From: Cristatella mucedo
Taxonomy: Eukaryota; Bryozoa; Phylactolaemata; Cristatellidae
Assembly: GCA_009760855.2 (NCBI GenBank)
Contig: WPIO01000116.1
Span: 994,501 to 1,058,500 of the forward strand
Length of the DNA: 64,000 nucleotides
Direction of reading: 5' to 3'
Shown: positions 2,216 through 64,000 of the stretch, one piece after another
How positions within the stretch are numbered: the first letter of the stretch is position 1
How the letters are laid out: every line of letters begins with the position of its first letter
Notes under the pieces: generated by a model
What the model saw: the letters and a program-made list of their open reading frames with translations, nothing else
What the model was told of the DNA's origin: nothing
Database searches by the model: none
Made by a program: the position numbers and the translations under genes

Positions 2216-2217
2216 AA

Positions 2218-4375: not shown

Positions 4376-4377
4376 AG

Positions 4378-5058: not shown

Positions 5059-5065
5059 CGCCGGA

Positions 5066-5425: not shown

Positions 5426-5527
5426 GTTAACAAGACACTCTATGAGACCGTGTAAGGTGTTACCCTCCAGACTGGAAATCTATGGTCAGGCTTGTTTAAT
5501 CACCCAAATGTCTTATCTATGTCAGCT

Positions 5528-6384: not shown

Positions 6385-6389
6385 CTGAA

Positions 6390-8705: not shown

Positions 8706-8714
8706 GAGTCAAAT

Positions 8715-15005: not shown

Positions 15006-15009
15006 CCCT

Positions 15010-39905: not shown

Positions 39906-40315
39906 GTCAATCGCTTAGATTCTCTGTGTGTGTACTCATGATTGCTGACATTATGCTGTCAGCCCTTTACTAGACATGCATGCTCAGCTTGCTCATGTCA
40001 TCACTAGCTATGTTTTATTCGTAATTTACAGCCCGTGGTGCTACTGACCATTCGATCGTTCTTACTTTTAAGTAATTATAAAGCACATACAAAGATAGCC
40101 AGTTCTCTATTGGTACTATATTAGATGTATTATTATTTTTTAATAATATTATTACAAACACGAGTTACCGATGGTAGGGTTAAAGGTGCGTACTAACCAG
40201 CTTCTTCTTACTGACTTGGAATTATGTGAGAGGTATGATTGGATAAAACACTGTGCATATCATTTGCAATCATAAGCAAAAGTAAGAACTTCACAACATA
40301 ATAACAAATATTTAG

Positions 40316-40321
40316 TTTATT
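40316..40321 (-). terminator. Poly(A) signal, unit A zinc-finger copy
   Basis: AATAAA on the minus strand, 42 nt past the ancestral stop, in the same place in all four copies. Confidence 0.6.
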
Positions 40322-40362
40322 CTCAATCAACCTCCATCTTTACCCGTCTGACTGCAGTGTAA

Positions 40363-41328
40363 TTACGAAACGTTGTGACAGTTCTTCTGGTGGGTCTTTA
40401 AGTATTGCCTTCGAGTGTAGGCAACATCACATTTATCACAGGCAAAAGGACGTTCTCCAGTGTGAACCAGTTGGTGAGAGCTAAGATGGTCCCTGCGTGC
40501 AAAGGTTTGTTCACACACTGAGCATGACTAGGGTCTCTCGCCCGTATGAGTCGTCAAGTGACTGCTCAAATGTGCAGACTGCGTAAATTTCTTGTCGCAG
40601 TACGTGCATTCGTAGGGCCTTTCTCCTGTGTGAGTTCTGACGTGTGCCTTTAAATTGCACGCCTGAGAGAAAACCTTGCCGCATGACTCACAACTGTACT
40701 CCTTTTTCACACGGCTGTCCAATATTGTATCATCATTTTCTTCTCTAATCGATAGCCTGACACGTTTGCTCGTGGTTTCTCCAGACTCACTTTCATGTAG
40801 GGTCGGATCATTCGCAATCTCCATCGTGTCAATCGGTTCAGGGTTTGCAGGTGCCCGGCGTTTCCTTGAAGGAATTTGCCTCTCTTCAGATTGTCCTGTT
40901 AAGTGGCATGGTTTACGAGCTGGCTCAACTTTACTGAAAGCTTTGTCGAGATCGTTCCTGTTGAATTCAGATGACGCCAGGCTTTGCGAATGCTGTGACT
41001 TTAGCTCAGTTTCTACAATAGTTGAAATATAATATGTTAATATTGTCATCGCAAACTATCAAAGTGAATGCCAATTTAGCCATGTAGCATAACAACGCTT
41101 CGATAGCGGTGCTATAGAAGAATCTGATATCAAGAAAAAGCGAATTCAGAGACAGTTAACCGTCGAAATGTACTGCTTACTTCCAACACCCTGCGGGGTT
41201 GTTCACAGCAAACCTGAACACTGTTGGTTATTATACTTACCTGGGCTCTTTATGTATTCATTCTCTCTTCTTTTCGGCGAGGATCCTGTTACTTCTTTGC
41301 CTCTGTATAGATTGCTTGACTTAGTCAT
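40363..41328 (-). pseudogene. Unit A C2H2 zinc-finger gene, truncated
   Basis: The first coding exon (41241-41328, ATG, 88 nt) and the zinc-finger exon (40363-41012, 650 nt) keep the splice sites and length of the intact copies, but both short middle exons are deleted. Because all exons are phase 1-1, joining the remaining two would still be in frame. A stop at 40530-40528 replaces Tyr-Ala by stop-Ser at the start of finger 3, so only fingers 1 and 2 could be made. Of about 12 amino-acid differences from unit B before the stop, all but one (Met to Thr after finger 2) lie in the disordered region ahead of the fingers. It is most likely dead, or makes a two-finger product. Confidence 0.8.
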
Positions 41329-43497
41329 TGTGATTTCTAATAAAAAAATTGTATTTACATTTGCCGAACCAAAAAACTGTAGCCTACTATGCAAATATAT
41401 ATTTAGTTTCATTTTAATCCGTACACAGCTCACATTTCTATGCACAAAGTTAGAATCAGTACAACATAGCCTAAAATTAGCAGATAATGTAAAAAGCTTA
41501 TTCTTGAAAGCGACACAATCCTTTATGGGCACGGTAAACCACTTGCAGTGAAACATAAGATTGATTAACTCATGGTTTGAACAACGACTTTTTGCCCTGA
41601 GCTGGTGACAAGCAACCGCCTAACCTAGTGTGCAATCACGAAATATACCGAAGCTGTAGAAGACTTTAAAAGTGAGGGACACAGCATTGATTTCGATTCA
41701 CTGCTTTAGTGGCAGCACTTTGTGCAGGACTTCGAAAATTGGGGTTAGTAGTGTGATTGAAATGCATACTGGCACTGCCTACCTCAACACTGGCTTTAGT
41801 TGCATCTCAACATCCAGCATACAAACGATAACCGTAAGATCGTGCAATATTAATGTTGTAAATGTTGTGCTTTTAGATAGACAACGTTATTTAAGGATAA
41901 AATTAGCTTGATGATTTCACAGAGAAAACTAGAACATTTCATTGCTATTCAGGTTTTTGCTTTAGCTGCAAGCTGCAAAAAGGTTAGTAGAGTTTGACCA
42001 TGTTGTCAAGCAGGCAGGGAAACAGTAGCAGCAACAGTGCTCTGCTGCCTCAAAATAAATTGAAGATGAGATTGTCCTCAATGAGAAACGATGTCCACGG
42101 AGAGCCAAGGTACTAATATAGAATTTGGGTTGCACTAAAATACATTGGAAATAAAAGTTCGGATTTTGAAGTATTTCTTCTTCTCTCATTGACCTTTAGA
42201 GGTCTTACGTTCTTCAGTGACTACTGAGCGGATTTGTGGATCAAATATCTTAGGTAGTAACAGGATATGAAAAAAACTAAGAAAGGCATGCCATTGTAAG
42301 CAATAATTTACCAGTCAGGTTTGTTCCGATTTCAAAACATTCCTAGAGCTCCTGAGCATCATTGATTTAGGAGCTAGCTAGAATTAATTTTACTTAATCA
42401 GATTGCAATGCCAGCAATAACTTTACAGGCAATGCTTGCATTTTCATTTCTTATTTGCATTACAATTTCAACAATATTTTCAGTATCACGTTGACTGATT
42501 GCTGATGACAGCCTCAACCTTTTTGCTTCAAAAAAAAACTGGTTAAAACATACTGTCTGCCGAACCTTGTTGGGGTCATCCCTGCGGGCTTTCTTTCATT
42601 AATACACCTATTCGATAGAATCAGATGAAATAGTGACTGATTTAGTATATTAGCCTCTCAATTCTAAACTTCTTGCAGCAAATTTGAAAGCAATCGACCT
42701 ATTTTTGAAGTGGCTACCAAAAACAACTTGCCGTGAGTGGCTGCTATCTTTAGCCCACAAGCACAAAGCCTCCCCTTTAAAAATGTGTACCATCTTACTT
42801 TAAATGTCCTCTTCCAAAAATGGCCCAGGCCTTTATCGTGTACCGTTTGAGTCAGTATGAAAACCAAGTGACCCGTCTAACACCAGAATTATTACATTCA
42901 TTAGTTCCCTTAATATTAACAGTAACACAATCGACAGTAATGTGATAGTCGCTCTGAAGAGCCACAACCCGAGAACTAAATAATCCCTTTATAATTTACT
43001 GTAAAAAATCAAGAATGGCAAGATTTATGCCAGTATATTCTGCAAGAAAAAAACCTATGACGTATCATGCTACGGCCAGCATGCTACTAAAGGCATGACG
43101 ACAGATCTGACCACCTGTTAGTTGGACCTCAGGCTAGTAACATGAATTTAATTAGGGACAGGGTTCCAGACTAAGAACATAAGAACGGTAAAGACAGGTC
43201 CTTAAAGTCAACGGTAACGTTAGATTGAGACATGCGTAACTTGCTTATCCGACGGCATGCTCTGTTTTTATGGATAGTGTCCGTTGCCGTAAGAGCAGCA
43301 GCAGACTGTTGGTACAAACTTTTAGTATTCATCACCTGAAAATAATACACAGGCTTGACGATGTAATTGAGGTAGACGCTGAGAAAACAGTAGTGCTTGA
43401 CCGAGCTTTTGAAGCACGGACTTGGTAGACGTGGACGTTCGAACCAGTGAGTGAAGCGACAAGTGAACAACAAAAAAGATTTCAATTGAATGGTATG

Positions 43498-43505
43498 CTT
43501 TTATA
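43498..43505 (-). promoter_or_regulatory. TATA box candidate, unit A
   Basis: TATAAAAG on the minus strand within GGGGCTCTTATAAAAGCATA. Conserved in units B and C. Confidence 0.4.
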
Positions 43506-45274
43506 AGAGCCCCTTCCTCTTGTAGTCCTAATTGGAGGTAGGTCAGCCGGTATTTTCTCAATTTCAGATATTGCTGCAATTGATTGATCGCGAACTTTGA
43601 ATCCGTCGTGATCCGCAGCTATCACTATTTCGGCTGCTGTAACAAGCGGCGCTCATCTTTCTAAATGTTTTAATGGACCCAGCGGCCCTAGCGAGCCTAA
43701 AAGTGACGAATTGGTGAAAGCTGGTGCACGCAGTTTTACTGCAAATGCAGAGTTCTATAGGAAGCACCAGATGAGGAACAGGTCTTTGAAACAAACAATT
43801 AATGAACCCTAGTAACCAAAGATGGCAGTGGCAAAAACTATATCAGCAACTGCTTACCGGCTGGTAAGCGGACTCGCTTGTCTCAGCAGCTGAGCGACAA
43901 GTTTCTCTGAGTGGAACGCTCCGAACCGTCTCCGTCGTAATACTGACATTCCCAGCCACCGTCAGCACATTATATTCTGGCATAATCAGATGTCATAAGT
44001 CTAAAGTAGCGAGAGCTAATCCCCTGGCTATGCTATAAACTAAACAAATTAATAATCTAATTATGAGTTAATTTTTAAACGTAATGATCGAATTCTGGTT
44101 ATATTACTCTACCTTATTTGAAGTCAGCGGGCTGCAAAAGCTTTGAAGTCCGTCGAATATTTCGCCTGACGTCATAATCCCGTCACTGTGGCAAGCATAT
44201 TGTTAGCAGCGTTATCCTCCGCCTATCGGTGTGATACTTAATTATACCCGTCATACGAATTCGTTTATTCTTTAGATCATATTGTAAGAATACTTTGGAA
44301 CGTAGTTATGGTGTTAATCGGGCAGCAATTCGGCTACAATGTAGCATGATCTCGGTTTGCAGTCCTATTTTACTGTAAGTTAGAGACTACGTCAACACAA
44401 ACAACGTTCCCAAATCTTATATGGAACTAGCTCAACAGGGTCACGAGCACTATGTTCTCAACGATTAATCTTCCGTTAATATAAACGAGCAGAGACGCTT
44501 CTAATGTCTGACTAAATACCAGCATAATACTCCATAAATCGATCAAAGACTAATTCAACGACCGGCTGAAAAATTACAGCCTTAAGTGTTCTGACCCTTG
44601 ATTTGAGCTCCCAACTTCATATTCTCTGACTACAGCTTGTACCTACCTTACTCCGAACGGAAGGAAGTACCCTGCTAAATCTTTCTCCGAAAAAAATCTG
44701 TCCCATCTTAAAATCTTCAAATGTGAATAAAAAAATCTGTACCATCCTAATACCAGCATTAACCAGGCATTACCGAAATCAAGCCACGAAGGCTGAAGCT
44801 TGATAATCGCCTACTAGCACCCATAGGTTCATAAATCAATGCCAGAAGCTTGCAACTGATCAATTTGGGAACCAATGGAAAGTGCTAGATTCAGGCTTCA
44901 TCAGCATTGATGTAATATTTGTATGGAATTTAGGTAATTATTGCCAGGAGCATGGTAGCTTCCTAATTTCTTACCAGAGCCTTAATTTCCAGTGAAACCA
45001 GTAGTATAAATATTTTGGCTCAGAACGTCCAGATTTTTAACGTCTTAATTAAGGGGCACTAGAAATCCTTAAGCAGAAGACCAGCGGGAAGTTAAAAAAA
45101 ACGTTGTCTTCAAAGCATTTCCGATTGTCCAATTCGTTGATGCCTGAGGAGGTCATTTACCTACTAACCTTTACCGGTGTATTAATCATTATTTTACTGT
45201 GCACCATGCATTTAGACGGATATGGCCCAATAAATCTTTTGTGATTACTTCTTCTGAGTTACATTTTCTTCTCC

Positions 45275-45555
45275 TGACTTGATCACATCCACCTATTGTA
45301 GAGCAGGTTCGATCGCTTAGATTCTTCATTTATTTGTGCTCATGAATGCTGACATTATGCTTTCTGCCATTAACTAGACGTGCACGCTCATGTCATCAAT
45401 AGCTATGTTGTATACGTAATTTACAGCCCGTGGTGCTACTGACCAGTCGACCGTTCTTACTTTGAAGTAATTATAAAGCACATACAAAGATAGCCAGTTC
45501 TCTATTGGTACTATATTAGACGTATTGTTATTTTTCAATAATATTATTACAAACA
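45275..45555 (+). mobile_element. LINE-B tail at the A/B unit boundary
   Basis: It has the LINE-B order of words (CCTGACTTGATCACATCCAC, GCTCATGAATGCTGACATTA, GTGGTGCTACTGACCAGTCG, AAGATAGCCAGTTCTCTATT, then ATT-rich). The same tail lies at the start of every unit (39909, 54250 and 63225 onward). Confidence 0.65.
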
Positions 45556-45933
45556 AGAGTTACCGATGTTGGTTAAAGTTGCATGCTAACCAGCTCCTTC
45601 TTACTGACGTCAAGCGTGGCCGCTTGTGTTCGCCGACATCGACTTTCTCAGCCGAACAGTAATTTTATAAATGGGGAATATGATAAGTGAAAGGTCTTCG
45701 GGCATGTAATTTTGAATGCGTAATCAGCTCTCCCCATTCGACACGCTAACGTATTCCTAACATTTAAACAGAGTTTTCACGTCGTGCTGACATCCCTATG
45801 CTTTTAATTTGCCATTAATTTAAATATGTGGATCTTGGAATTATGTGAGAGGTATGATCGAATAAAAACACAGTGCATATCATTTGCAATCATAAGCAAA
45901 AGTAAGAACTTCAAACATAAAACAAATATTTAG

Positions 45934-45939
45934 TTTATT
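45934..45939 (-). terminator. Poly(A) signal, unit B zinc-finger gene
   Basis: Minus-strand AATAAA in GAGAATAAACTAAATATTT, 42 nt after the stop codon. Confidence 0.65.
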
Positions 45940-45980
45940 CTCAATCAACCTCCATCTTTACCCGTCTGACTGCAGTGTAA

Positions 45981-48900
45981 TTACGAAACGTTGTGACAGT
46001 TCTTCTGGTGGGTCTTTAAGTATTGCCTTCGAGTGTAGGCAACATCACATTTATCACAGGCAAAAGGACGTTCTCCAGTGTGAACCAGTTGGTGAGAGCT
46101 AAGATGGTCCCTGCGTGCAAAGGTTTGTTCACACACTGAGCATGCATAGGGTCTCTCGCCCGTATGAGTCATCAAGTGACTGCTCAAATGTGCAGACTGC
46201 GTAAATTTCTTGTCGCAGTACGTGCATTCGTAGGGCCTTTCTCCTGTGTGGGTTCTGACGTGTGCCTTTAAATTGCACGCCTGAGAGAAAACCTTGCCGC
46301 ATGACTCACAACTGTACTCCTTTTTCACACGGCTGTCCAATATTGTATCATTGTTTTCTTCTTTAATCGATAGCCTGACACGTTTGCTCGTGGTTTCTCC
46401 AGACTCACTTTCATGTAGGGTTGGATCATTCGCAATCTCCATCGTGTCAATCGGTTCAGGGTTTGCAGGTGCCCGGCGTTTCCTTGAAGGAATTTGCCTC
46501 TCTTCAGAATGTCCTGTTAAGTTGGATGGTTTACGAGCTGGCTCAGCAATACTGGGAGCTTTGTCGAGATCATTACTGTTGAATTCAGATGATGGTGGGC
46601 TTTGCGAATGCTGTGACTTTAGCTCAGTTTCTACAATAGTTGAAATATAATATGTTAATATTGTCATCGCAAACAATATGGAGAACTTTATTTAATGGGA
46701 AATATGTTGGGAGTAATCCGTACAATATTCCTGTCTCTGTCATAATAGCCAATATGCTAAACTATTGGCAGTAAATCAAATTATTTTGTAAAAGTGAAAC
46801 GTCCGCCACATACAATTTTTCTAAGAAAATCAGGACGTTAAACTGCTGATGGGATGTCACAGTCTTTAATCAGTCAATATCTCCACAGATTTTGCGCTTT
46901 ACTTGGATAGCACAGCATTTCTTACGAAATCCTTCACACGGTTCAGTTAGAAGCGGTTAGACCTGCACCCCTACATTATAAATGTGCAGTGGGTGGAATG
47001 TTTTATTTTCCTTGTTCGGACAAGCTGAAACCACGTAATTGGTTGATAACTGCTACCACTTTCCATCTTGCCACACTGCAGCCGAAGAGATCATTATTGT
47101 ACCTATAAGGCAACGGCCTAGGCAAATGTATTGGTGACTTATTACTTTGTTATCAGATGATATCCTTGTCTACGTGCAGAGCGTTAGATCAAACTATTGT
47201 TTGAGTACTTTGGATACAATGATATGGTTCATTTTTTTTTAAATTGAACGGCAAAGCCGATGAAAGCCTACATACAAGTGGATTGGTATTCGTTTAAAAA
47301 ACGTAGCTCCGATGCAACACGGCTGGAAACAACATGGAAATACCCTAACGTGTCATACATTTTTAATGCCCCCTGATGTTGGTTATTAAGCCTTACAAAC
47401 TGGCGCGATCAATTTGTAAACCTATTTGAGATAAAACTCAAGCATGCCAGTTAGATCAGAGCAAGGTGAAGGAGCTCCCCAGCAAAATGGGGACATCCGT
47501 TTTTTAAAAGAATTATTATTAATATTTTAGAACCTAGTAATATGAATACTACCTTTTGTTGTTTGAGCTTATATTGTGGAAGGATTAGTCTTAGCTTGCA
47601 TTACTCGTCCCTTCAGACAGAGGTCATGGCTGAGTGATAAGAACCTCTGCATTCTGCAGAAAGACATATTGCTCTCGATTGGCTCCCGGACTACAAACTT
47701 CGATTTCATAAATTGACTAGAAACAAGTTGCTCTGCAAAAGCAATTCCGTTTTTAGGCCATGGAAACTAGAAAACCTGCAATAGTAATAGGCACAAACAT
47801 AAACTCTCTTATGTTTTGAGATTCCTGATGGAATAATTTACAGATCCGCTCAGCAGAATCTTTGTCAATTTAAAGTGGGTCACTGTTAGATCAAGAATTA
47901 AATTATCTAGAGAATGTGGCAAGTAAGTCGCGTAAGCATATTATGCACAGGCCAACTTCGCATCGCCTTTGAGGCTTACCAAGAACGTTTTCAAAGTTTC
48001 AAGCTAAACCTCACACTGAAAGGAACCCACAACTTTTGGGTCACTTTACGACTAAAAAACATTCCCACATTACTGAAGCCAGAAATCTACGGATTGTTTC
48101 GTTGCAATCTTAGATGTAATGCTGCAGGCAGCTGACAAGGAAACTTACCCATGTTTTTGTACTCGTCTTCAGCATATTTCCAGAACGCCTGAATTATTTC
48201 TACATTGAATAGAATGCCCATATCACTGCATCAGCATACGAAAGGTGTATGACAAATTTCTCTAGAATCTCTAAATACATGTTCGAAACACTTATTCGCT
48301 CGGTCAAGAACATCTTTAATCGCAGACGAAATTCGATTGCAACTCAGCAGAACGAAATATCTTAGGTCAATAAACACTGAATTTAGACAAGCTGCCACAG
48401 TAGTGAGACAATTGGACGAGCTGGCAGACAAGCATTGATTAAAGCCAAATTATAACTAAGTGCCATCTGCACGAAAGTCGAAACCTAGTCTACAATGACC
48501 TAGCAATCTCATCGGAAAGAGGAAGAGCATAAAGCTGAAAGGAAGCAACCCAATCACAGAGTCCTGTGTTGCCACAGATTTCAACACTTCCTCGAAGGAT
48601 GTTTGGAAGCTTAAGTCCATAATCGGGAGTCTTTTAATGAGATGACTGGTCTTCAGGTCCTTCACCACCTCAGGTCCTGGGTGGACAATAAATTAGCTGT
48701 CCCATTTCTCCCATTAAAGACCTATGCCGGCAGAAGCTTTGGCTCAGCAGGTTCTAGACTGTGGAAGTCGCTCCCACATTTCTTACGAAATGAGAGCTAA
48801 GAGTAATTAAATCCTGCAGCCGATTATGACTCATTCTTTACAGCGGTCCTGAGCTGCAACTTGCGAGCTAATTACTACCTCAACTGCTCTCCTGACTATG

Positions 48901-50240
48901 CTATGCTTCCCAATTTCTCTTTGTTGAGTGAAACTAAGTCTATTGGCTACCGAATGCGTACCTGAAGCTGCTTAGGCTGTGAGTGTGCTATACAAAACTC
49001 TCCTGCATAGCAGTCACATAGTCTTTATGACATTGTTAGTTACGAACGGAAATAAATTAAATTGCATTATAAATACCAGTTCGTATTTTGAAGTACTTCT
49101 GCTTTTCTCATAGATCTTTATCGCACTTACGTTCTTCAGTGAATACTGAGCGGAAATAGTACCCTGACTCATAAGGCCCCCACGTGACTTTCTGGAGTAG
49201 CAGACGGCGAATCAATAATTTACTTACATGCAGGCACAGAAGTACCTCAAGAGATTCCTTTTTTCTCAAGCAGGCAATATAGAAGATTTGTTCAATATCC
49301 TAAGTTTATAATTAAAGACTAGAGGCTCTTAGTTACTGACCAATAATGATTATTTCGTACTAATTCAGTGATGCAAGGGACTTAAAATAAAATATATTGT
49401 GACAGCTCAGAAAGATATAGCATAACAGTAGTAGTCAAACATCCTCAAAGTTTTCAGTGTTCTTCATTGCAAAGAACTTTTGAAATAACAATAACCGACT
49501 TGAATCATTTTTTTCCGAATGAACAATCTGCATAAAATTAAGGATAATTATCTAGTGAGACAGTTTTTCTCAGCAAAGGAGTCCTAAGTTTTCTGACACA
49601 TGGAGTCACACACAAATTCTAGTCAAGGGACTCGTGGTAAAACGAAGTCTAACCCAAATTATAGGTAAACGTGTTTGTTGTCACCTTTAAAACAAATATA
49701 TTTATCTGAAACTGTGTTTTTGTCTCATGCTATATTGGCATTTAATTCTAAACATTATTAGGAAAGTGCCAATCGTTACTTACCGATATCTCGATGCAGA
49801 TCTAGAACGAACTCCCAAAAGAGCTTGAAATCTACATCGAACGAAATTAAACATGAGTCGGCAACAGTAATCATGGAAATATTCTATAAGCTCCTAATGC
49901 ACACCCAACAATTTTAAATCAATTTAGAACAATGCGTGCTATGTAACCTATGCTATAGCCTGCCTGGGCTATCAAAGTGAATGCCAATTTAGCCATGTAG
50001 CATAACAACGCTTCGATAGCGGTGCTATAGAAGAATCTGATATAAAGAAAAAGCGAATTCAGAGACAGTTAACCGTCGAAATGTACTGCTCACTTCCCAC
50101 ACCCAGCGGGTTGTTCACAGCAAACCTGAACACTGTTGGTTATTATACTTACCTGGGCTCTTTATGTATTCATTCTCTCTTCTTTTCGGCGAGGATCCTG
50201 TTACTTCTTTGCCTCTGTATAGATTGCTTGACTTAGTCAT
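45981..50240 (-). CDS. Four-finger C2H2 zinc-finger protein, unit B
   Basis: Probably a nuclear DNA-binding regulator; target unknown. Model: complement(join(45981..46630,48149..48199,49784..49831,50153..50240)), 837 nt, 278 aa. The start is the ATG in AATCACAATGAC (A at -3), eight bases into an exon with acceptor TTCATTAG. Exons end at GTAAGT-type donors and all three junctions are phase 1, making Asp, Glu and Glu. Order: basic Ser-rich start (SSPKRRENEY); two short aromatic/acidic helical segments (FKLFWEFVLDLHRDI; IIQAFWKYAEDEYKNM); disordered linker with basic cluster SRKRRAP, a likely nuclear signal; then YSCESCGKVFSQACNLKAH, YECTYCDKKFTQSAHLSSH, YACSVCEQTFARRDHLSSH and FACDKCDVAYTRRQYLKTH, the first three joined by THTGERP-type linkers. 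All zinc ligands are intact. Orthology is not known. Further 5' noncoding exons are likely. Confidence 0.8.
48149..48199 (-). CDS. Short exon 3 of the unit B zinc-finger gene
   Basis: 51 nt between acceptor GGCATTCTATTCAATGTAG and donor ATGG/GTAAGT. Phase 1 on both sides, encoding (E)IIQAFWKYAEDEYKNM. Identical in unit C, absent from unit A. Confidence 0.7.
48231..48668 (-). other. Two protein-like open frames conserved in units B and C
   Basis: 48456-48668 reads KDLKTSHLIKRLPIMDLSFQ then TSFEEVLKSVATQDSVIG; 48231-48431 reads SSNCLTTVAACLNSVFIDLR then ISSAIKDVLDRANKCFEHVF. Both look like ordinary helical protein and each is preceded by an acceptor-like CAG (about 48690 and 48425), but donors and phases do not join to each other or to the zinc-finger exons. 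They lie in the intron between short exons 2 and 3 and have direct equivalents at 57201-57638. They may be remnants of another gene carried in the unit. Confidence 0.35.
48716..49058 (+). mobile_element. LINE-A 3' end in the intron of the unit B gene
   Basis: GCAGAAGCTTTGGCTCAGCA ... GACTGTGGAAGTCGCTCCCA (AxPRLWKSLP block), then the LINE-A tail GCGTACCTGAAGCTGCTTAG and GAAATAAATTAAATTGCATT. It is shared by unit C, so it predates the B/C duplication. Confidence 0.8.
49784..49831 (-). CDS. Short exon 2 of the unit B zinc-finger gene
   Basis: 48 nt between acceptor AATTTCGTTCGATGTAG and donor ATCG/GTAAGT. Phase 1 on both sides, encoding (D)FKLFWEFVLDLHRDI. Its product resembles that of exon 3 (F-W core, acidic, same phase), suggesting the two arose by exon duplication. 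Absent from unit A. Confidence 0.65.
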
Positions 50241-52407
50241 TGTGATTTCTAATGAAAAAATGGTATTTACATTTGCCGAACCAAAAAACTGTAGCCTACT
50301 AAACAAATATATATTTAGTTTCATTTTAATCCGTACACAGCTCACATTTCTATGCACAAAGTTAGAATCAGTACAACATAGCGTAAAATTACAAGATAAT
50401 GTAAAAGCTTATTCTTGAAAGCGACACAATCCTTTATGTGCACGGTAAACCACTTGCAGTGAAACATAGGATTGATTAATTCATGGTTTGAACAACGACT
50501 TTGTGCCCTGAGCTGGTGACAAGCAACCGCTCAACCTAGTGTGCAATCACGAAATATACCGAAGCTGTAGAAGACTTTAAAAGTGAGGGACACAACATTG
50601 ATTTCTATTCACTGCTTTAGTGGCAGCACTTTGTGCAGGACTTCGAAAATTGGGGTTAGTAGTGTGATTGAAATGCATACTGGCACTGCCTACCTCAATA
50701 CTGGCTTTAGTTGCATCTCAACATCCAGCATACAAACTATAACCGTAAGATCGTGCAATATTAATGTTGTAAATAAATGTTGTGCTTTTGGATGGACAAC
50801 GTTATTTAAGAATGAAATTATTTTAATGATTTCACAGAGAAAACTAGAACATTTCATTGCTATTCAGGATTTTCCTTTAGCTACAAGCTGCAAAAAGGAT
50901 AGTAGAGTTTGACCATGTTGTAACGCAGGCAGGGAAACAGTAGCAGCAACAGTGCTCTGCTGCCTCTAAATAAATTGAAGATGAGATTGTCCTCAATGAG
51001 AAACGATGTCCATGGAGAGCCAAGGTACTAATATAGAATTTGGGTTGCACTAAAATACATTGGAAATAAAAGTTCGGATTTTGAAGTATGTCTTCTTCTC
51101 TCACAGACCTTTAGAGGTCTTACGTTCTTCAGTGAATACTGAGCGGATTTGTGGATCAAATATCTTAGATAGTAACAGGATATGAAACAAACTAAGAAAG
51201 GCATGCCATTGTAAGCAATAATTTACCAGTCAGGTTTGTTCCGATTTCAAAACATTCCTAGAGCTCCTGAGCATCATTGATTTAGGAGCTAGCTAGAATG
51301 AATTTTACTTAATCAGATTGCAATGCCAGCAATAACTTTACAGGCAATGCTTGCACTTTCATTTCTTATTTGCATTACAATTTCAACAATATTTTCAGTA
51401 TCGCGTTGAATGATTGCTGATGACAGCCTCAACCTTTTTGCTTCAACAAAAAACTGGTTGAAACATACTGTCTGCCGCACCTTGTTGGGGTCATCCCTGC
51501 GGGCTTTCTTTCATTAATACACCTATTCGATATAATCAGATGAAATAGTGACTGATTTAGTATATTAGCCTCTCAATTCTAAACTTCTTGCAGCAATTTT
51601 GAAAGCAATCGACCTATTTTTGAAGTGGCTACCAAAAACAACTTGCCGTGAGTGGCTGTTATCTTTAGCTCACAAGCACAAAGCCTCCCCTTTAAAAATG
51701 TGTACCATCTTACTTTAAATGTCCTATTCCAAAAATGGCCCAGGCCTTTATCGTGTACCGTATGAGTCAGTATGAAAACCAAGTGGCCCGTCTAACACCA
51801 TAATTATTACATTCATTAGTTCCCTTAATATTAACAGTAACACAATCGACATACATGTGATAGTCGCTCTGAAGAGCCCCAACCCGAGAACTAAATAATC
51901 CCTTTATAATTTGCTGTAAAAAAAAGAATGGGCAAGATTTATGCCAGTATATTCTGCAAGAAAAACATATGACGTATCATGCTACGGCCAGCATGCTACT
52001 AAAGGCATGACGACAGAACTGACCACCTGTTAGTTGGACCTCAGGCTAGTAACATGAATTTAATCAGGGACAGGGTTCCAGACTAAGAACATAAGAACGG
52101 TAAAGACAGGTCCTTAAAGTCAACGGTAACGTTAGATTGAGACATGCGTAATATGCTTATCCGACGGCATGCTCTGTTTTTATGGATAGTGTCCGTTGCC
52201 GTAAGAGCAGCAGCAGACTGTTGGTACAAACTTTTAGTATTCATCACCTGAAAATAATACACAGGCTTGACGATGTAATTGAGGTAGACGCTGAGAAAAC
52301 AGTAGTGCTTGACCGAGCTTTAGAAGCACGGACTTGGTAGACGTGGACGTTCGAACCAGTGAGTGAAGCGACAAGTGAACAAGAAAAGATTTCAATTGAA
52401 TGGTATG

Positions 52408-52415
52408 CTTTTATA
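52408..52415 (-). promoter_or_regulatory. TATA box candidate, unit B
   Basis: TATAAAAG on the minus strand, followed about 30-40 nt downstream by a stretch (GTTCACTTGTCGCTTCACTC) that could hold a start site. It lies 2.2 kb upstream of the first coding exon. Confidence 0.4.
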
Positions 52416-52472
52416 AGAGCCCTTCCTCTTGTAGTCCTAATTGGAGGTAGGTCAGCCGGTATTTTCTCAATT

Positions 52473-53180
52473 TCAGATATTGCTGCAATTGATTGATCGC
52501 GAACTTTGAATCCGTCGTGATCCGCAGCTATCACTATTTCGGCTGCTGTAACAAGCGGCGCTCATCTTTCTAAATGTTTTAATGGACCCAGCGGCCCTAC
52601 CGAGCCTAAAAGTGACGAACTGGTGAAAGCTGGTGCACGCAGTTTTACTGCAAATGCAGAGTTCTATAGGAAGCACCAGATGAGGAACACACGTCTTTGA
52701 AACAAACAATTAATGAACCCTAGTAACCAAAGATGGCAGTGGCAAAACTATATCAGCAACTGCTTACCGGCTGGTAAGCGGACTCGCTTGTCTCAGCAGC
52801 TGAGCGACAAGTTTCTCTGAGTGGAACGCTCCGAACCGTCTCCGTCGTAATACTGACATTCCCAGCCACCGTCAGCACATTATATTCTGGCATAATCAGA
52901 TGTCATAAGTCTAAAGTAGCGAGAGCTAATCCCCTGGCTATGCTATAAACTAAACAAATTAATAATCTAATTATGAGTTAATTTTTAAACCTAATGATCG
53001 AATTCTGGTTATATTACTCTACCTTATTTGAAGTCAGCGGGCTGCAAAAGCTTTGAAGTCCGTCGAATATTTCGCCTGACGTCATAATCCCGTCACTGTG
53101 GCAAGCATATTGTTAGCAGCGTTATCCTCCGCCTATCGGTGTGGGATGAGAGCTTAGCAGCAGGTTTAGTGACGAACAAC
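52473..53180 (-). other. Conserved upstream segment with a 104-nt intron (unit B)
   Basis: Minus-strand donor CAGCCG/GTAAGC (exon end 52768) and acceptor GGTGCTTCCTATAG (exon start 52663) enclose 104 nt. The same pair is present in units A (43858/43754) and C and in the old copy at 32.6-33.2 kb, although reading frames around it are disrupted by indels between copies. These are best read as 5' untranslated exons of the zinc-finger gene, or of a neighbouring minus-strand gene. Confidence 0.45.
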
Positions 53181-54903
53181 TTTTGGTTGGACCAAAGTCA
53201 GACAAATATTATTACTTAATTATACCCGTCATACGAATTCGTTTATTCTTTAGATCATATTGTAAGAATACTTTGGAACGTAGTTATGGTGTTAATCGGG
53301 CAGCAATTCGGCTACAATGTAGCATGATCTCGGTTTGCAGTCCTATTTTACTGTAAGTTAGAGACTACGTCAACACAAACAACGTTCCCAAATCTTATAT
53401 GGAACTAGCTCAACAGGTTCACGAGCACTATGTTCTCAACGATTAATCTTCCGTTAATATAAACGAGCAGAGACGCTTCTAATGTCTGACTAAATACCAG
53501 CATAATACTCCATAAATCGATCAAAGACTAATTCAACGACCGGCTGAAAAATTACAGCCTTAAGTGTTCTGACCCTTGATTTGAGCTCCCAACTTCATAT
53601 TCTCTGACTACAGCTTGTACCTACCTTACTCCGAACGGAAGGAAGTACCCTGCTAAATCTTTCTCCGAAAAAAATCTGTCCCATCTTAAAATCTTCAAAT
53701 GTGAATAAAAAAATCTGTACCATCCTAATACCAGCATTAACCAGGCATTACCAAAATCAAGCCACGAAGGCTGAAGCTTGATAATCGCCTACTAGCACCC
53801 ATAGGTTCATAAATCAATGCCAGAAGCTTGCAACTGATCAATTGGGAACCAATGGAAAGTGCTAGATTCAGGCTTCATCAGCATTGATGTAATATTTGTA
53901 TGGAATTTAGGTAATTATTGCCAGGAGCATGGTAGCTTCCTAATTTCTTACCAGAGCCTTAATTTCCAGTGAAACCAGTAGTATAAATATTTTGGCTCAG
54001 AACGTCCAGTTTTTTAACGTCTTAATTAAGGGGCACTAGAAATCCTTAAGCAGAAGACCAGCGGGAAGTTAAAAAAAACGTTGTCTTCAAAGCATTTCCG
54101 ATTGTCCAATTCGTTGATGCCTGAGGAGGTCATTTACCTACTAACCTTTACCGGTGTATTAATCATTATTTTACTGTGCACCGTGCATTTAGACGGATAT
54201 GGCCCAATAAATCTTTTGTGATTACTTCTTCTGAATTACATTTCTTCTCCTGACTTGATCACATCCACCTATTGTAGAGCAGGTTCGATCGCTTAGATTC
54301 TTCATTTATGTGCTCATGAATGCTGACATTATGCTTTCTGCCATTAACTAGACGTGCACGCTCATGTCATCAATAGCTATGTTGTATACGTAATTTACAG
54401 CCCGTGGTGCTACTGACCAGTCGACCGTTCTTACTTTGAAGTAATTATAAAGCACATACAAAGATAGCCAGTTCTCTATTGGTACTATATTAGACGTATT
54501 GTTATTTTCAATAATATTATTACAAACAAGAGTTACCGATGTTGGTTAAAGTTGCATGCTAACCAGCTCCTTCTTACTGACGTCAAGCGTGGCCGCTTGT
54601 GTTCGCCGACATCGACTTTCTCAGCCGAACAGTAATTTATAAATGGGGAATATGATAAGTGAAAGGTCTTCGGGCATGTAATTTTGAATGCGTAATCAGC
54701 TCTCCCCATTCGACACGCTAACGTATTCCTAACATTTAAACAGAGTTTTCACGTCGTGCTGACATCCCTATGCTTTAATTTGCCATTAATTTAAATATGT
54801 GGATCTTGGAATTATGTGAGAGGTATGATCGAATAAAACACAGTGCATATCATTTGCAATCATAAGCAAAAGTAAGAACTTCAAACATAAAACAAATATT
54901 TAG

Positions 54904-54909
54904 TTTATT
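54904..54909 (-). terminator. Poly(A) signal, unit C zinc-finger gene
   Basis: Minus-strand AATAAA at the same distance from the stop codon as in unit B. Confidence 0.65.
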
Positions 54910-54950
54910 CTCAATCAACCTCCATCTTTACCCGTCTGACTGCAGTGTAA

Positions 54951-57900
54951 TTACGAAACGTTGTGACAGTTCTTCTGGTGGGTCTTTAAGTATTGCCTTC
55001 GAGTGTAGGCAACATCACATTTATCACAGGCAAAAGGACGTTCTCCAGTGTGAACCAGTTGGTGAGAGCTAAGATGGTCCCTGCGTGCAAAGGTTTGTTC
55101 ACACACTGAGCATGCATAGGGTCTCTCGCCCGTATGAGTCATCAAGTGACTGCTCAAATGTGCAGACTGCGTAAATTTCTTGTCGCAGTACGTGCATTCG
55201 TAGGGCCTTTCTCCTGTGTGGGTTCTGACGTGTGCCTTTAAATTGCACGCCTGAGAGAAAACCTTGCCGCATGACTCACAACTGTACTCCTTTTTCACAC
55301 GGCTGTCCAATATTGTATCATTGTTTTCTTCTTTAATCGATAGCCTGACACGTTTGCTCGTGGTTTCTCCAGACTCACTTTCATGTAGGGTCGGATCATT
55401 CGCAATCTCCATCGTGTCAATCGGTTCAGGGTTTGCAGGTGCCCGGCGTTTCCTTGAAGGAATTTGCCTCTCTTCAGAATGTCCTGTTAAGTTGGATGGT
55501 TTACGAGCTGGCTCAGCAATACTGGGAGCTTTGTCGAGATCATTACTGTTGAATTCAGATGATGGTGGGCTTTGCGAATGCTGTGACTTTAGCTCAGTTT
55601 CTACAATAGTTGAAATATAATATGTTAATATTGTCATCGCAAACAATAAGGAGAACTTTATTTTATGGGAAATATGTTGGGAGTAATCCGTACAATATTC
55701 CTGTCTCTGTCGTAATAGCCAATATGCTAAACTATTGGCAGTAAATCAAATTATTTTGTAAAAGTGAAACGTCCGCCACATACAATTTTTCTAAGAAAAT
55801 CAGGACGTTAAACTGCTGATGGGATGTCACAGTCTTTAATCAGTCAATATCTCCACAGATTTTGCGCTTTACTTGGATAGCACAGCATTTCTTACGAAAT
55901 CCTTCACACGGTTCAGTTAGAAGCGGTTAGACCTGCACCCCTACATTATAAATGTGCAGTGGGTGGAATGTTTTATTTTCCTTGTTCGGACAAGCTGAAA
56001 CCACGTAATTGGTTGATAACTGCTACCACTTTCCATCTTGCCACACTGCAGCCGAAGAGATCACTATTGTACCTATAAGGCAACGGCCTAGGCAAATGTA
56101 TTGGTGACTTATTACTTTGTTATCAGATGATATCCTTGTCTACGTGGAGAGCGTTAGATGAAACTATTGATTGAGTACTTTGGATACAATGATATGGTTC
56201 ATTTTTTTTTAAATTGAACGGCAAAGCCGATGAAAGCATACATACAAGTGGATTGGTATTCGTTTAAAAAACGTAGCTCCGATGCAACACGGCTGGAAAC
56301 AACATGGAAATACCCTAACGTGTCATACATTTTTAATGCCCCCTGATGTTGGTTATTAAGCCTTACAAACTGGCGCGATCAATTTGTATACCTATTTGAG
56401 ATAAAACTCAAGCATGCCAGTTAGATCAGAGCAAGGTGAAGGAGCTCCCCAGCAAAATGGGGACATCCGTTTTTTAAAAGAATTATTATTAATATTTTAG
56501 AACCTAGTAATATGAATACTACCTTTTGTTGTTTGAGCTTATATTGTGGAAGGATTAGTCTTAGCTTGCATTACTCGTCCCTTCAGACAGAGGTCATGGC
56601 TGAGTGATAAGAACCTCTGCATTCTGCAGAAAGACATATTGCTCTCGATTGGCTCCCGGACTACAAACTTCGATTTCATAAATTGACTAGAAACAAGTTG
56701 CTCTGCAAAAGCAATTCCGTTTTTAGGCCATGGAAACTAGAAAACCTGCAATAGTAATAGGCACAAACATAAACTCTCTTATGTTTTGAGATTCCTGATG
56801 GAATAATTTACAGATCCGCTCAGCAGAATCTTTGTCAATTTAAAGTGGGTCACTGTTAGATCAAAAATTAAATTATCTAGAGAATGTGGCAAGTAAGTCG
56901 CGTAAGCATATTATGCACAGGCCAACTTCGCATCGCCTTTGAGGCTTACCAAGAACGTTTTCAAAGTTTCAAGCTAAACCTAACACTGACAGAAACCCAC
57001 AACTTTTGGGTCACTTTACGACTAAAAAACCTTCACACATTACTGAAGCCCGAAATCTACGGATTGTTTCGTTGCAATCTTAGACGTAATGCTGCAGGCA
57101 GCTGACAAGGAAACTTACCCATGTTTTTGTACTCGTCTTCAGCATATTTCCAGAACGCCTGAATTATTTCTACATTGAATAGAATGCCCATATCACTGCA
57201 TCAGCAAACGAAAGGTGTATGACAAATTTCTCTAGAATCTCTAAATACATGTTCGAAACACTTATTCGCTCGGTCAAGAACATCTTTAATCGCAGACGAA
57301 ATTCGATTGCAACTCAGCAGAACGAAATATCTTAGGTCAATAAACACTGAATTTAAACAAGCTGCCACAGTAGTGAGACAATTGGACGAGCTGGCAGACA
57401 AGCATTGATTAAAGCCAAATTATAACTAAGTGCCATCTGCACGAAAGTCGAAACCTAGTCTACAATGACCTAGCAATCTCATCGGAAAGAGGAAGAGCAT
57501 AAAGCTGAAAGGAAGCAACCCAATCACAGAGTCCTGTGTTGCCACAGATTTCAACACTTCCTCGAAGGATGTTTGGAAGCTTAAGTCCATAATCGGGAGT
57601 CTTTTAATGAGATGACTGGTCTTCAGGTCCTTCACCACCTCAGGTCCTGGGTGGACAATAAATTAGCTGTCCCATTTCTCCCATTAAAGACCTATGCCGG
57701 CAGAAGCTTTGGCTCAGCAGGTTCTAGACTGTGGAAGTCGCTCCCACATTTCTTACGAAATGAGAGCTAAGAGTAATTAAATCCTGCAGCCGATTATGAC
57801 TCATTCTTTACAGCGGTCCTGAGCTGCAACTTGCGAGCTAATTACTACCTCAACTGCTCTCCTGACTATGCTATGCTTCCCAATTTCTCTTTGTTGAGTG

Positions 57901-59213
57901 AAACTAAGTCTATTGGCTACCGAATGCGTACCTGAAGCTGCTTAGGCTGTGAGTGTGCTATACAAAACTCTCCTGCATAGCAGTCACATAGTCTTTATGA
58001 CATTGTTAGTTACGAACGGAAATAAATTAAATTGCATTATAAATACCAGTTCGTATTTTGAAGTACTTCTGCTTTTCTCATAGATCTTTATCGCACTTAC
58101 GTTCTTCAGTGAATACTGAGCGGAAATAGTACCCTGACTCATAAGGCCCCCACGTGACTTTCTGGAGTAGCAGACGGCGAATCAATAATTTACTTACATG
58201 CAGGCACAGAAGTACCTCAAGAGATTCCTTTTTTCTCAAGCAGGCAATATAGAAGATTTGTTCAATATCCTAAGTTTATAATTAAAGACTAGAGGCTCTT
58301 AGTTACTGACCAATAATGATTATTTCGTACTAATTCAGTGATGCAAGGGACTTAAAATAAAATATATTGTGACAGCTCAGAAAGATATAGCATAACAGTA
58401 GTAGTCAAACATCCTCAAAGTTTTCAGTGTTCTTCATTGCAAAGAACTTTTGAAATATAACAATAACCGACTTGAATCATTTTTTTTCCGAATGAACAAT
58501 CTGCATAAAATTAAGGATAATTATCTAGTGAGACAGTTTTTCTCAGCAAAGGAGTCCTAAGTTTTCTGACACATGGAGTCACACACAAATTCTAGTCAAG
58601 GGACTCGTGGTAAAACGAAGTCTAACCCAAATTATAGGTAAACGTGTTAGTTGTCACCTTTAAAACAAATATATTTATCTGAAACTGTGTTTTTGTCTCA
58701 TGCTATATTGGCATTTAATTCTAAACATTATTAGGAAAGTGCCAATCGTTACTTACCGATATCTCGATGCAGATCTAGAACGAACTCCCAAAAGAGCTTG
58801 AAATCTACATCGAACGAAATTAAACATGAGTCGGCAACAGTAATCATGGAAATATTCTATAAGCTCCTAATGCACACCCAACAATTTTAAATCAATTTAG
58901 AACAATGCGTGCTATGTAACCTATGCTATAGCCTGCCTGGGCTATCAAAGTGAATGCCAATTTAGCCATGTAGCATAACAACGCTTCGATAGCGGTGCTA
59001 TAGAAGAATCTGATATAAAGAAAAAGCGAATTCAGAGACAGTTAACCGTCGAAATGTACTGCTCACTTCCCACACCCAGCGGGTTGTTCACAGCAAACCT
59101 GAACACTGTTGGTTATTATACTTACCTGGGCTCTTTATGTATTCATTCTCTCTTCTTTTCGGCGAGGATCCTGTTACTTCTTTGCCTCTGTATAGATTGC
59201 TTGACTTAGTCAT
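54951..59213 (-). CDS. Four-finger C2H2 zinc-finger protein, unit C
   Basis: Model: complement(join(54951..55600,57119..57169,58757..58804,59126..59213)), 837 nt, 278 aa. The finger exon translates identically to unit B and both short exons and all splice sites are preserved, so B and C encode the same protein as far as can be read. Upstream, the first coding exon again starts eight bases after a CATTAG acceptor. Either a very recent duplication or ongoing gene conversion explains the identity. Function is as inferred for unit B: nuclear sequence-specific DNA binding through four fingers, partners unknown. Confidence 0.8.
57201..57638 (-). other. Unit C equivalents of the conserved intronic open frames
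   Basis: Same two frames as at 48231-48668, still open with identical predicted products apart from no visible change in the parts compared. Conservation here only reflects the recent duplication. Confidence 0.3.
57686..58028 (+). mobile_element. LINE-A 3' end in the unit C gene intron
   Basis: Copy of the element at 48716-49058 duplicated with the unit. Confidence 0.8.
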
Positions 59214-61382
59214 TGTGATTTCTAATGAAAAAATGGTATTTACATTTGCCGAACCAAAAAACTGTAGCCTACTAAACAAATATATATTTAGTTTCATTTT
59301 AATCCGTACACAGCTCACATTTCTATGCACAAAGTTAGAATCAGTACAACATAGCGTAAAATTACAAGATAATGTAAAAGCTTATTCTTGAAAGCGACAC
59401 AATCCTTTATGTGCACGGTAAACCACTTGCAGTGAAACATAGGATTGATTAATTCATGGTTTGAACAACGACTTTGTGCCCTGAGCTGGTGACAAGCAAC
59501 CGCTCAACCTAGTGTGCAATCACGAAATATACCGAAGCTGTAGAAGACTTTAAAAGTGAGGGACACAACATTGATTTCTATTCACTGCTTTAGTGGCAGC
59601 ACTTTGTGCAGGACTTCGAAAATTGGGGTTAGTAGTGTGATTGAAATGCATACTGGCACTGCCTACCTCAATACTGGCTTTAGTTGCATCTCAACATCCA
59701 GCATACAAACTATAACCGTAAGATCGTGCAATATTAATGTTGTAAATAAATGTTGTGCTTTTGGATGGACAACGTTATTTAAGAATGAAATTATTTTAAT
59801 GATTTCACAGAGAAAACTAGAACATTTCATTGCTATTCAGGATTTTCCTTTAGCTACAAGCTGCAAAAAGGATAGTAGAGTTTGACCATGTTGTAACGCA
59901 GGCAGGGAAACAGTAGCAGCAACAGTGCTCTGCTGCCTCTAAATAAATTGAAGATGAGATTGTCCTCAATGAGAAACGATGTCCATGGAGAGCCAAGGTA
60001 CTAATATAGAATTTGGGTTGCACTAAAATACATTGGAAATAAAAGTTCGGATTTTGAAGTATGTCTTCTTCTCTCACAGACCTTTAGAGGTCTTACGTTC
60101 TTCAGTGAATACTGAGCGGATTTGTGGATCAAATATCTTAGATAGTAACAGGATATGAAACAAACTAAGAAAGGCATGCCATTGTAAGCAATAATTTACC
60201 AGTCAGGTTTGTTCCGATTTCAAAACATTCCTAGAGCTCCTGAGCATCATTGATTTAGGAGCTAGCTAGAATGAATTTTACTTAATCAGATTGCAATGCC
60301 AGAAATAACTTTACAGGCAATGCTTGCACTTTCATTTCTTATTTGCATTACAATTTCAACAATATTTTCAGTATCGCGTTGAATGATTGCTGATGACAGC
60401 CTCAACCTTTTTGCTTCAACAAAAAACTGGTTGAAACATACTGTCTGCCGCACCTTGTTGGGGTCATCCCTGCGGGCTTTCTTTCATTAATACACCTATT
60501 CGATATAATCAGATGAAATAGTGACTGATTTAGTATATTAGCCTCTCAATTCTAAACTTCTTGCAGCAATTTTGAAAGCAATCGACCTATTTTCGAAGTG
60601 GCTACCAAAAACAACTTGCCGTGAGTGGCTGTTATCTTTAGCTCACAAGCACAAAGCCTCCCCTTTAAAAATGTGTACCATCTTACTTTAAATGTCCTAT
60701 TCCAAAAATGGCCCAGGCCTTTATCGTGTACCGTATGAGTCAGTATGAAAACCAAGTGGCCCGTCTAACACCATAATTATTACATTCATTAGTTCCCTTA
60801 ATATTAACAGTAACACAATCGACATACATGTGATAGTCGCTCTGAAGAGCCCCAACCCGAGAACTAAATAATCCCTTTATAATTTGCTGTAAAAAAAAGA
60901 ATGGGCAAGATTTATGCCAGTATATTCTGCAAGAAAAACATATATGACGTATCATGCTACGGCCAGCATGCTACTAAAGGCATGACGACAGAACTGACCA
61001 CCTGTTAGTTGGACCTCAGGCTAGTAACATGAATTTAATCAGGGACAGGGTTCCAGACTAAGAACATAAGAACGGTAAAGACAGGTCCTTAAAGTCAACG
61101 GTAACGTTAGATTGAGACATGCGTAATATGCTTATCCGACGGCATGCTCTGTTTTTATGGATAGTGTCCGTTGCCGTAAGAGCAGCAGCAGACTGTTGGT
61201 ACAAACTTTTAGTATTCATCACCTGAAAATAATACACAGGCTTGACGATGTAATTGAGGTAGACGCTGAGAAAACAGTAGTGCTTGACCGAGCTTTAGAA
61301 GCACGGACTTGGTAGACGTGGACGTTCGAACCAGTGAGTGAAGCGACAAGTGAACAAGAAAAGATTTCAATTGAATGGTATG

Positions 61383-61390
61383 CTTTTATA
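61383..61390 (-). promoter_or_regulatory. TATA box candidate, unit C
   Basis: TATAAAAG in the same context as in units A and B. Confidence 0.4.
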
Positions 61391-63876
61391 AGAGCCCTTC
61401 CTCTTGTAGTCCTAATTGGAGGTAGGTCAGCCGGTATTTTCTCAATTTCAGATATTGCTGCAATTGATTGATCGCGAACTTTGAATCCGTCGTGATCCGC
61501 AGCTATCACTATTTCGGCTGCTGTAACAAGCGGCGCTCATCTTTCTAAATGTTTTAATGGACCCAGCGGCCCTACCGAGCCTAAAAGTGACGAACTGGTG
61601 AAAGCTGGTGCACGCAGTTTTACTGCAAATGCAGAGTTCTATAGGAAGCACCAGATGAGGAACACGTCTTTGAAACAAACAATTAATGAACCCTAGTAAC
61701 CAAAGATGGCAGTGGCAAAACTATATCAGCAACTGCTTACCGGCTGGTAAGCGGACTCGCTTGTCTCAGCAGCTGAGCGACAAGTTTCTCTGAGTGGAAC
61801 GCTCCGAACCGTCTCCGTCGTAATACTGACATTCCCAGCCACCGTCAGCACATTATATTCTGGCATAATCAGATGTCATAAGTCTAAAGTAGCGAGAGCT
61901 AATCCCCTGGCTATGCTATAAACTAAACAAATTAATAATCTAATTATGAGTTAATTTTTAAACCTAATGATCGAATTCTGGTTATATTACTCTACCTTAT
62001 TTGAAGTCAGCGGGCTGCAAAAGCTTTGAAGTCCGTCGAATATTTCGCCTGACGTCATAATCCCGTCACTGTGGCAAGCATATTGTTAGCAGCGTTATCC
62101 TCCGCCTATCGGTGTGGGATGAGAGCTTAGCAGCAGGTTTAGTGACGAACAACTTTTGGTTGGACCAAAGTCAGACAAATATTATTACTTAATTATACCC
62201 GTCATACGAATTCGTTTATTCTTTAGATCATATTGTAAGAATACTTTGGAACGTAGTTATGGTGTTAATCGGGCAGCAATTCGGCTACAATGTAGCATGA
62301 TCTCGGTTTGCAGTCCTATTTTACTGTAAGTTAGAGACTACGTCAACACAAACAACGTTCCCAAATCTTATATGGAACTAGCTCAACAGGTTCACGAGCA
62401 CTATGTTCTCAACGATTAATCTTCCGTTAATATAAACGAGCAGAGACGCTTCTAATGTCTGACTAAATACCAGCATAATACTCCATAAATCGATCAAAGA
62501 CTAATTCAACGACCGGCTGAAAAATTACAGCCTTAAGTGTTCTGACCCTTGATTTGAGCTCCCAACTTCATATTCTCTGACTACAGCTTGTACCTACCTT
62601 ACTCCGAACGGAAGGAAGTACCCCGCTAAAAAAAAAAAAAAAAAAATCTGTCCCATCTTAAAATCTTCAAATGTGAATAAAAAAATCTGTACCATCCTAA
62701 TACCAGCATTAACCAGGCATTACCGAAATCAAGCCACGAAGGCTGAAGCTTGATAATCGCCTACTAGCACCCATAGGTTCATAAATCAATGCCAGAAGCT
62801 TGCAACTGATCAATTGGGAACCAATGGAAAGTGCTAGATTCAGGCTTCATCAGCATTGATGTAATATCTGTATGGAATTTAGGTAATTATTGCCAGGAGC
62901 ATGGTAGCTTCCTAATTTCTTACCAGAGCCTTAATTTCCAGTGAAACCAGTAGTATAAATATTTTGGCTCAGAACGTCCAGATTTTTAACGTCTTAATTA
63001 AGGGGCACTAGAAATCCTTAAGCAGAAGACCAGCGGGAAGTTAAAAAAAACGTTGTCTTCAAAGCATTTCCGATTGTCCAATTCGTTGATGCCTGAGGAG
63101 GTCATTTACCTACTAACCTTTACCGGTGTATTAATCATTATTTTACTGTGCACCGTGCATTTAGACGGATATGGCCCAATAAATCTTTTGTGATTACTTC
63201 TTCTGAGTTACATTTCTTCTCCTGACTTGATCACATCCACCTATTGTAGAGCAGGTTCGATCGCTTAGATTCTTCATTTATGTGCTCATGAATGCTGACA
63301 TTATGCTTTCTGCCATTAACTAGACGTGCACGCTCATGTCATCAATAGCTATGTTGTATACGTAATTTACAGCCCGTGGTGCTACTGACCAGTCGACCGT
63401 TCTTACTTTGAAGTAATTATAAAGCACATACAAAGATAGCCAGTTCTCTATTGGTACTATATTAGACGTATTGTTATTTTCAATAATATTATTACAAACA
63501 AGAGTTACCGATGTTGGTTAAAGTTGCATGCTAACCAGCTCCTTCTTACTGACGTCAAGCGTGGCCGCTTGTGTTCGCCGACATCGACTTTCTCAGCCGA
63601 ACAGTAATTTTATAAATGGGGAATATGATAAGTGAAAGGTCTTCGGGCATGTAATTTTGAATGCGTAATCAGCTCTCCCCATTCGACACGCTAACGTATT
63701 CCTAACATTTAAACAGAGTTTTCACGTCGTGCTGACATCCCTATGCTTTAATTTGCCATTAATTTAAATATGTGGATCTTGGAATTATGTGAGAGGTATG
63801 ATCGAATAAAACACAGTGCATATCATTTGCAATCATAAGCAAAAGTAAGAACTTCAAACATAAAACAAATATTTAG

Positions 63877-63882
63877 TTTATT
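63877..63882 (-). terminator. Poly(A) signal, unit D
   Basis: Minus-strand AATAAA, conserved with the other units. In unit D it lies only 19 nt past the new stop. Confidence 0.55.
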
Positions 63883-63900
63883 CTCAATCAACCTCCATCT

Positions 63901-64000
63901 TTACCCGTCTGACTGCAGTGTAATTACGAAAACGTTGTGACAGTTCTTCTGGTGGGTCTTTAAGTATTGCCTTCGAGTGTAGGCAACATCACATTTATCA
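63901..64000 (-). CDS. 3' end of a C2H2 zinc-finger gene, unit D, with altered stop
   Basis: The last finger end matches unit B, but a run of four A (63928-63931) instead of three shifts the frame just before the stop. Instead of ...CHNVS-stop the frame reads ...CHNVFVITLQSDG and stops at 63903-63901. The fingers themselves would be unaffected. The rest of the gene lies outside the window, so whether unit D is functional cannot be judged. A single-base homopolymer difference is also a typical sequencing error. Confidence 0.6.
   Translation of the reverse strand, partial: DKCDVAYTRRQYLKTHQKNCHNVFVITLQSDG

Follow-up and report, generated by a model that had tools for sequence, protein, structure and literature searches.

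A small tandem array of four-finger C2H2 genes in a probable birth-and-death zinc-finger cluster with signs of exchange between copies

A 64,000-nucleotide window (G000:C18:994501-1058500, from a 572-Mb assembly of 688 contigs) contains, in its right-hand part, a head-to-tail array of units bearing a four-finger C2H2 gene, which is in all likelihood a small array in a fast-changing birth-and-death cluster of a single C2H2 family, shaped in addition by unequal exchange and/or conversion. Positions below are window coordinates unless a contig is named; beyond the window, the comparison covered C18 up to 1213000 and all of contig C396. Few gene families in animals grow as fast as those of zinc-finger proteins, and to our knowledge most detailed case histories are mammalian. 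The present array is an ordinary but unusually legible case of cluster growth, decay and inter-copy sequence copying: from its base-exact joints, mosaic unit, inverted second locus and candidate second haplotype, one can reconstruct which events came first in what looks like a protostome.

Self-BLAST bears out the four head-to-tail units (A-D) proposed in the initial annotation: positions 44235-55026 are 99.4% identical to 53213-64000, with A-type matches at about 97%. B and C, rightly described as almost identical, differ at 29 of 8959 aligned sites (0.32%), with 30 gap columns; D differs from B at 40 of 4152 sites and from C at 32 of 4151, and A is indeed the more diverged unit, with 140 of 5377 sites different from B. 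The periods of 8976 and 8972 bp are exact in the frame 45284/54260/63232. For A, given as 5402 bp, the offset measures 5403 where the unit begins on the left but 5619 across the zinc-finger exon, varying because internal pieces are missing from A. The unit edges also had to be redrawn, the natural borders being 44351, 53329 and 62302. On the minus strand, A occupies 39881-44350 and lacks unit positions 326-550 and 1392-4685, its left 335 bp being much older (86%); B (44351-53328, with the joint at both 44351 and 53329) and C (53329-62301, delimited by the B/C alignment and the joints) are complete, at 8.97 kb each; and D (62302-64000, continuing to 68117 outside the window) lacks unit positions 4160-7387, as is seen from the sequence beyond the window. 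Unit homology in D is lost at 67387, and an extra piece of the unit (67464-68117, 93.5%) follows before other sequence begins. The array does cross the right edge of the window, but it ends soon afterwards, and because D stops at 68117 it consists of four units, of which A and D are damaged and B and C are complete. The higher copy number anticipated earlier is therefore wrong for this array, although the wider cluster extends as far as the ends of contigs C18 and C15. A 0.4-kb repeat inside the unit (48668-49069, unit positions 3385-3786), about 82% alike at at least 28 places on other contigs, is probably a small interspersed transposon.

Each complete unit carries one minus-strand gene: an exon block at the 5′ end is followed by a short exon 2 and by the terminal exon, which encodes four C2H2 fingers. 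In B, the terminal exon 3 (45981-46630) is preceded by the acceptor TATTGTAG, begins with AAACTG and ends in a TAA stop; exon 2, in its long model (49784-49893), has the donor G/GTAAGT in phase 1, matching exon 3, and is best conserved in the 48 bases adjoining this donor; and the exon 1 block (52768-52988, the 5′ limit being approximate) ends at 52768 with the donor CCAGCCG/GTAAGC. Their counterparts in C are located at 54951-55600, encoding the same protein part as in B, at 58757-58866 (long model, candidate ATG at 58847) and at 61741-61961 (100% identical to B). The ATG of exon 2 (49874 in B) is present in B, C, the inverted copy Pu on C18 and the C396 copy Hu, and it is only a candidate start, since older copies either lack it or have a stop in the same frame. 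An ATG-led coding exon 1 was rejected upon inspection by eye, as its open frame misfits the phase of exon 2, and exon 1 is therefore treated as untranslated.

The terminal exon contains four fingers of the form C-x2-C-x12-H-x3-5-H joined by three TGERP linkers, in line with the TGE(R/K)P linker consensus used to define the C2H2 class, and it matches Pfam zf-C2H2 and zf-H2C2_2 well above cut-off. Other Pfam matches of the predicted protein are few, weak and below cut-off, an NCBIfam scan gave a single match, likewise below cut-off, and none of the domains KRAB, ZAD, SCAN, BTB or PR/SET was found among the 22 Pfam families matched at E up to 1 by the predicted 246-aa protein, which may possess a further N-terminal part. 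The proteins of the complete copies are nearly identical and are predicted to contact DNA through the same finger residues; the gene is therefore probably a sequence-specific transcription regulator present in several doses. The assembly is rich in other C2H2 genes, with at least 149 matches to PF00096 among the best 150 of 1494 candidates.

The gene is not intact in every unit, although the initial annotation gave each of them a four-finger gene. In A, the exon 3 remnant (40363-41012) has a TAG at 40528-40530, between fingers 2 and 3, and in D the frame of exon 3 (3′ end at 63924-64000, the rest extending to 64577 outside the window) is disrupted by three changes in homopolymer length that may be errors of the consensus; exon 2 is missing from both. 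The exon 1 block of A (43858-44078) is 100% identical to that of B, and an orphan exon 1 block from an older copy (90%) is found at 32828-33055, all of these features being on the minus strand. Comparison of 13 copies of exon 3 (further fragments on C396, at C18:1215403 and where C15 ends being set aside) shows it to be open in five, namely B, C, C18:1168665, C18:1191615 and C396:23195, and all of these except C18:1168665 (4/13 copies) also retain all three exon blocks. Related copies thus lie together, some complete and others pseudogenes, as in a tandem cluster under birth-and-death evolution, where some units would have decayed through deletion and stop codons. The exon 3 tree has good support for five of its ten inner branches and does not separate B, C, D, P0 and Pu, so that by itself it yields no grouping of the array. 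A deletion of about 3.1-3.3 kb, lying between the finger exon and exon 2, is present in each of A, P0 and H0, with three different joints and ends crowded into 107 and 152 bases; a search for repeats shared between these two zones returned only short weak matches, and no long repeat was found within 46500-50100. Far to the left of the array, 10137-10400 (minus strand) holds a remnant of the zinc-finger exon that is 70% alike and interrupted by stop codons.

Units B, C and D begin with the same joint (44351, 53329 and 62302), and a search allowing up to five edits locates it at five places in all in the sequence compared. One of the other two lies on the minus strand of C18 near 199.43 kb, within an inverted copy some 146 kb from the array, and the second is near 16.55 kb on C396, a 42-kb contig. 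Single upstream edges are found at 68118 and, in the inverted copy, at 189822, and a single downstream edge is at C396:25509. Comparison of these edges shows a blunt joint to which one base has been added. Its presence at five places demonstrates an ancestral head-to-tail duplication, by which a 9-kb segment with the whole gene would once have been joined to its copy through a blunt join plus one base. The loci sharing the joint are about 3% apart (B-Pu 3.38%, B-Hu 2.92%, Pu-Hu 3.41%), so the tandem state is older than this divergence, whereas B, C and D became nearly identical later. Sharp unit ends at several places would also be expected if the unit were a mobile element with a captured zinc-finger gene, a view which we find scarcely credible: the copies share flanks, as predicted by segmental duplication; long unit matches, among the matches listed, are confined to C18, C396 and the C15 end; and the single edges show no evident repeat of a target sequence.

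The unit and its flank recur in inverted orientation on C18 at 185-201 kb, which shows that the locus was also duplicated, in inverted orientation, within this contig. A further inverted pair on C18 (94-113 and 128-155 kb) is mostly 84-93% alike. We rejected a foldback assembly artefact as the source of the inverted copy, as the inner arms are only about 84-93% alike, their spacing is uneven and they have lost different exons. In the inner pair (C18, 108532-108584 and 138313-141530), one arm is without the finger exon and the other without exon 1, their losses being complementary. In the tree of flanks, the window flank pairs with one flank of the inverted locus, and C396 with the other; C396 appears to represent another haplotype of the inverted locus, one in which the units are arranged differently. 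Contig C15 ends (L024, G000:C15:1316001-1320112) inside a 93%-alike copy of the zinc-finger exon, another copy lies 1.6 kb short of the end of C18, and the cluster therefore probably spans an assembly gap. Elsewhere, equal-scoring inverted zinc-finger matches 170 kb apart (G000:C332, 930236, minus, and 1100205, plus) recall the layout of C18.

These contig ends show that the assembler was troubled by the cluster, and they illustrate why such loci break assemblies; together with the small size of C396, a leftover contig, and the over-representation of homopolymer indels between B, C and D, they would be in keeping with an assembly duplication, in which B and C (or A-D) would result from double counting of one or two genuine units, or from placing two haplotypes end to end. 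We nevertheless consider this explanation highly improbable. Pure stutter predicts no substitutions, whereas B and C differ by 29, and the same joint occurs at two other places with different flanks; unique window sequence at 14000-19000 matches nothing in the assembly over its full length other than itself. Nor are B and C the two haplotypes represented by Pu and C396, because B and C differ by far less than the roughly 3% that separates that pair. The comparison of B with C yields 11 indels beside 29 substitutions, and that of B with Hu 12 beside 262, and this excess of small indels, seen among B, C and D, may point to a degree of error in the consensus. The ratios of transitions to transversions are alike, however (12:16 for B/C and 112:147 for B/Hu), and the substitutions within the array therefore do not look like a special class of error. 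A simple assembly duplication is unlikely.

The initial annotation also proposed growth by unequal exchange with homogenisation, and this part is supported by the joint shared by five places, by the mosaic of A and by units that are more alike than their flanks between the inverted loci. Between the window locus and the inverted locus, 241 of 7152 sites differ in the unit (3.4%) versus 250 of 3938 in the adjoining flank (6.3%; Fisher p = 9e-13), whereas a control comparison of the C18 inverted copy with C396 reveals no difference of this kind, with 244/7151 in the unit and 100/3364 and 191/6445 in the flanks (p = 0.11). The mosaic tract of A (41057-42938, minus strand, 1.9 kb, from unit position 4687 to about 6568) nearly equals the C396 unit: over unit positions 4687-6500, A differs from it at only 1 of 1810 sites, versus 55 of 1810 from B, while at 7001-7860 A becomes B-like, with 6/858 differences from B and 18/857 from C396. 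The B/C substitutions are crowded as well, 20 of 28 being located at unit positions 1139-3103, 3 at 3104-8367 and 5 at 8368-8952, and the observed chi value was reached by none of 5000 shuffles weighted by local divergence (nine mismatches at 8376-8384, in a misaligned A-run, were dropped before this test); the longest substitution-free stretch, considered by itself, is not significant (p = 0.054). At seven sites C and D share a state absent from B, Pu and Hu, and a further seven sites set B apart from all of C, D, Pu and Hu.

Tracts of paralogues that are more alike than their flanks or neighbouring tracts are the mark of concerted evolution or gene conversion, and such tracts are present here; the pattern is most simply read as the outcome of either unequal crossing over or gene conversion. 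The window locus would have grown to four units as its units crossed over unequally, while recombination among units and among loci, whether by conversion or crossing over, would have overwritten parts of units, as suggested by mosaic A, the uneven B/C differences and the excess similarity of units over flanks. Alternatively, an old tandem duplication might simply be decaying with no exchange between loci, if C396 were a chimera accounting for the mosaic of A, and the array had later been copied between arms, producing the contrast between unit and flank. C396 could indeed be a chimeric contig, which would give the A-like tract without exchange, and if, once the inverted duplication was in place, the unit had been copied a single time from one arm to the other, the units would likewise resemble each other more than the flanks do. 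We nonetheless regard such a history as improbable, since B/C differences are uneven within the array itself and A turns from C396-like to B-like along its length; exchange between copies remains the preferred reading.

Coding sequence differs less than noncoding sequence in comparisons of B with Pu (7/741 versus 234/6411, p = 2e-5) and with Hu (10/741 versus 250/8219, p = 0.006), with no significant contrast between B and A (22/650 versus 118/4727, p = 0.19) or B and C (1/741 versus 36/8226, p = 0.36). P0 and H0, which are without exon 2, also show a lower difference in the exon than in noncoding sequence (22/661 versus 128/2360, p = 0.03, and 12/650 versus 52/1379, p = 0.02, respectively), and the contrast is therefore not unique to complete copies. 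Between B and the older diverged copy M, dN/dS is 0.17 in the fingers and about 0.6 in the rest of the exon. Relative to B, none of the 16 contact residues is changed in C, Pu and Hu, and one is changed in M, with seven and five changes in the decayed copies P2a and P2b; no excess of change at helix positions -1, 2, 3 and 6, as expected in an arms race, was seen at 3% divergence, where power is low. The unchanged contact residues weakly suggest a constant binding site. One may speculate further, though we find it doubtful, that inverted arms and tandem units keep exchanging and so maintain several doses of one DNA-binding specificity, while a recurrent deletion hotspot by the finger exon keeps making shortened copies. 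Such a system, itself a rather unlikely one, would be the opposite of the diversifying zinc-finger clusters, and should exchange really keep several copies at a single specificity, this locus would provide a useful contrast to them.

Mammalian Y palindromes are inverted repeats kept alike by gene conversion, and the C18 locus resembles them in having inverted copies with a gene-bearing part more alike than the neighbouring parts; unlike those near-perfect palindromes, its arms are mostly 79-93% alike, with gaps. Mammalian zinc-finger clusters are described as growing by tandem and block duplication under a birth-and-death model (PMC2443715), with signs of recombination reported in mouse clusters (PMC5363842), and, as far as these accounts describe them, the clustering of C2H2 genes, their duplication and loss, and the signs of recombination are similar in KRAB-zinc finger clusters and here (PMC5363842, PMC2443715). 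In contrast to the KRAB-zinc finger clusters, no KRAB domain was found here in the predicted protein, the four fingers lie in one short exon, and the contact residues are unchanged among complete copies. Among protostomes, C2H2 expansions are reported in cephalopod molluscs (PMC12513265), which likewise represent lineage-specific C2H2 duplication, although that work deals with genome-wide families and expression (PMC12513265).

The previous description of the genome as invertebrate-like agrees with the occurrence of let-7, mir-2 and bantam, each with one match above Rfam's gathering score in the genome. The three together are expected of a protostome, and the organism accordingly looks like one. 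Searches of the window for RNA and tRNA genes found none (ARAGORN being run with the bacterial code), and none of eight other ORFs tested had a Pfam match above cut-off. A minus-strand ORF at 25010-25414, perhaps one exon of an ordinary gene, has a weak sub-cut-off match to RAB3GAP2_N (E = 0.0023), and a plus-strand ORF at 35975-36289 has a weak sub-cut-off match to reverse transcriptase (RVT_1). Short local tandem repeats are present at 14719-15006 (145 bases) and 209-527 (119 bases).
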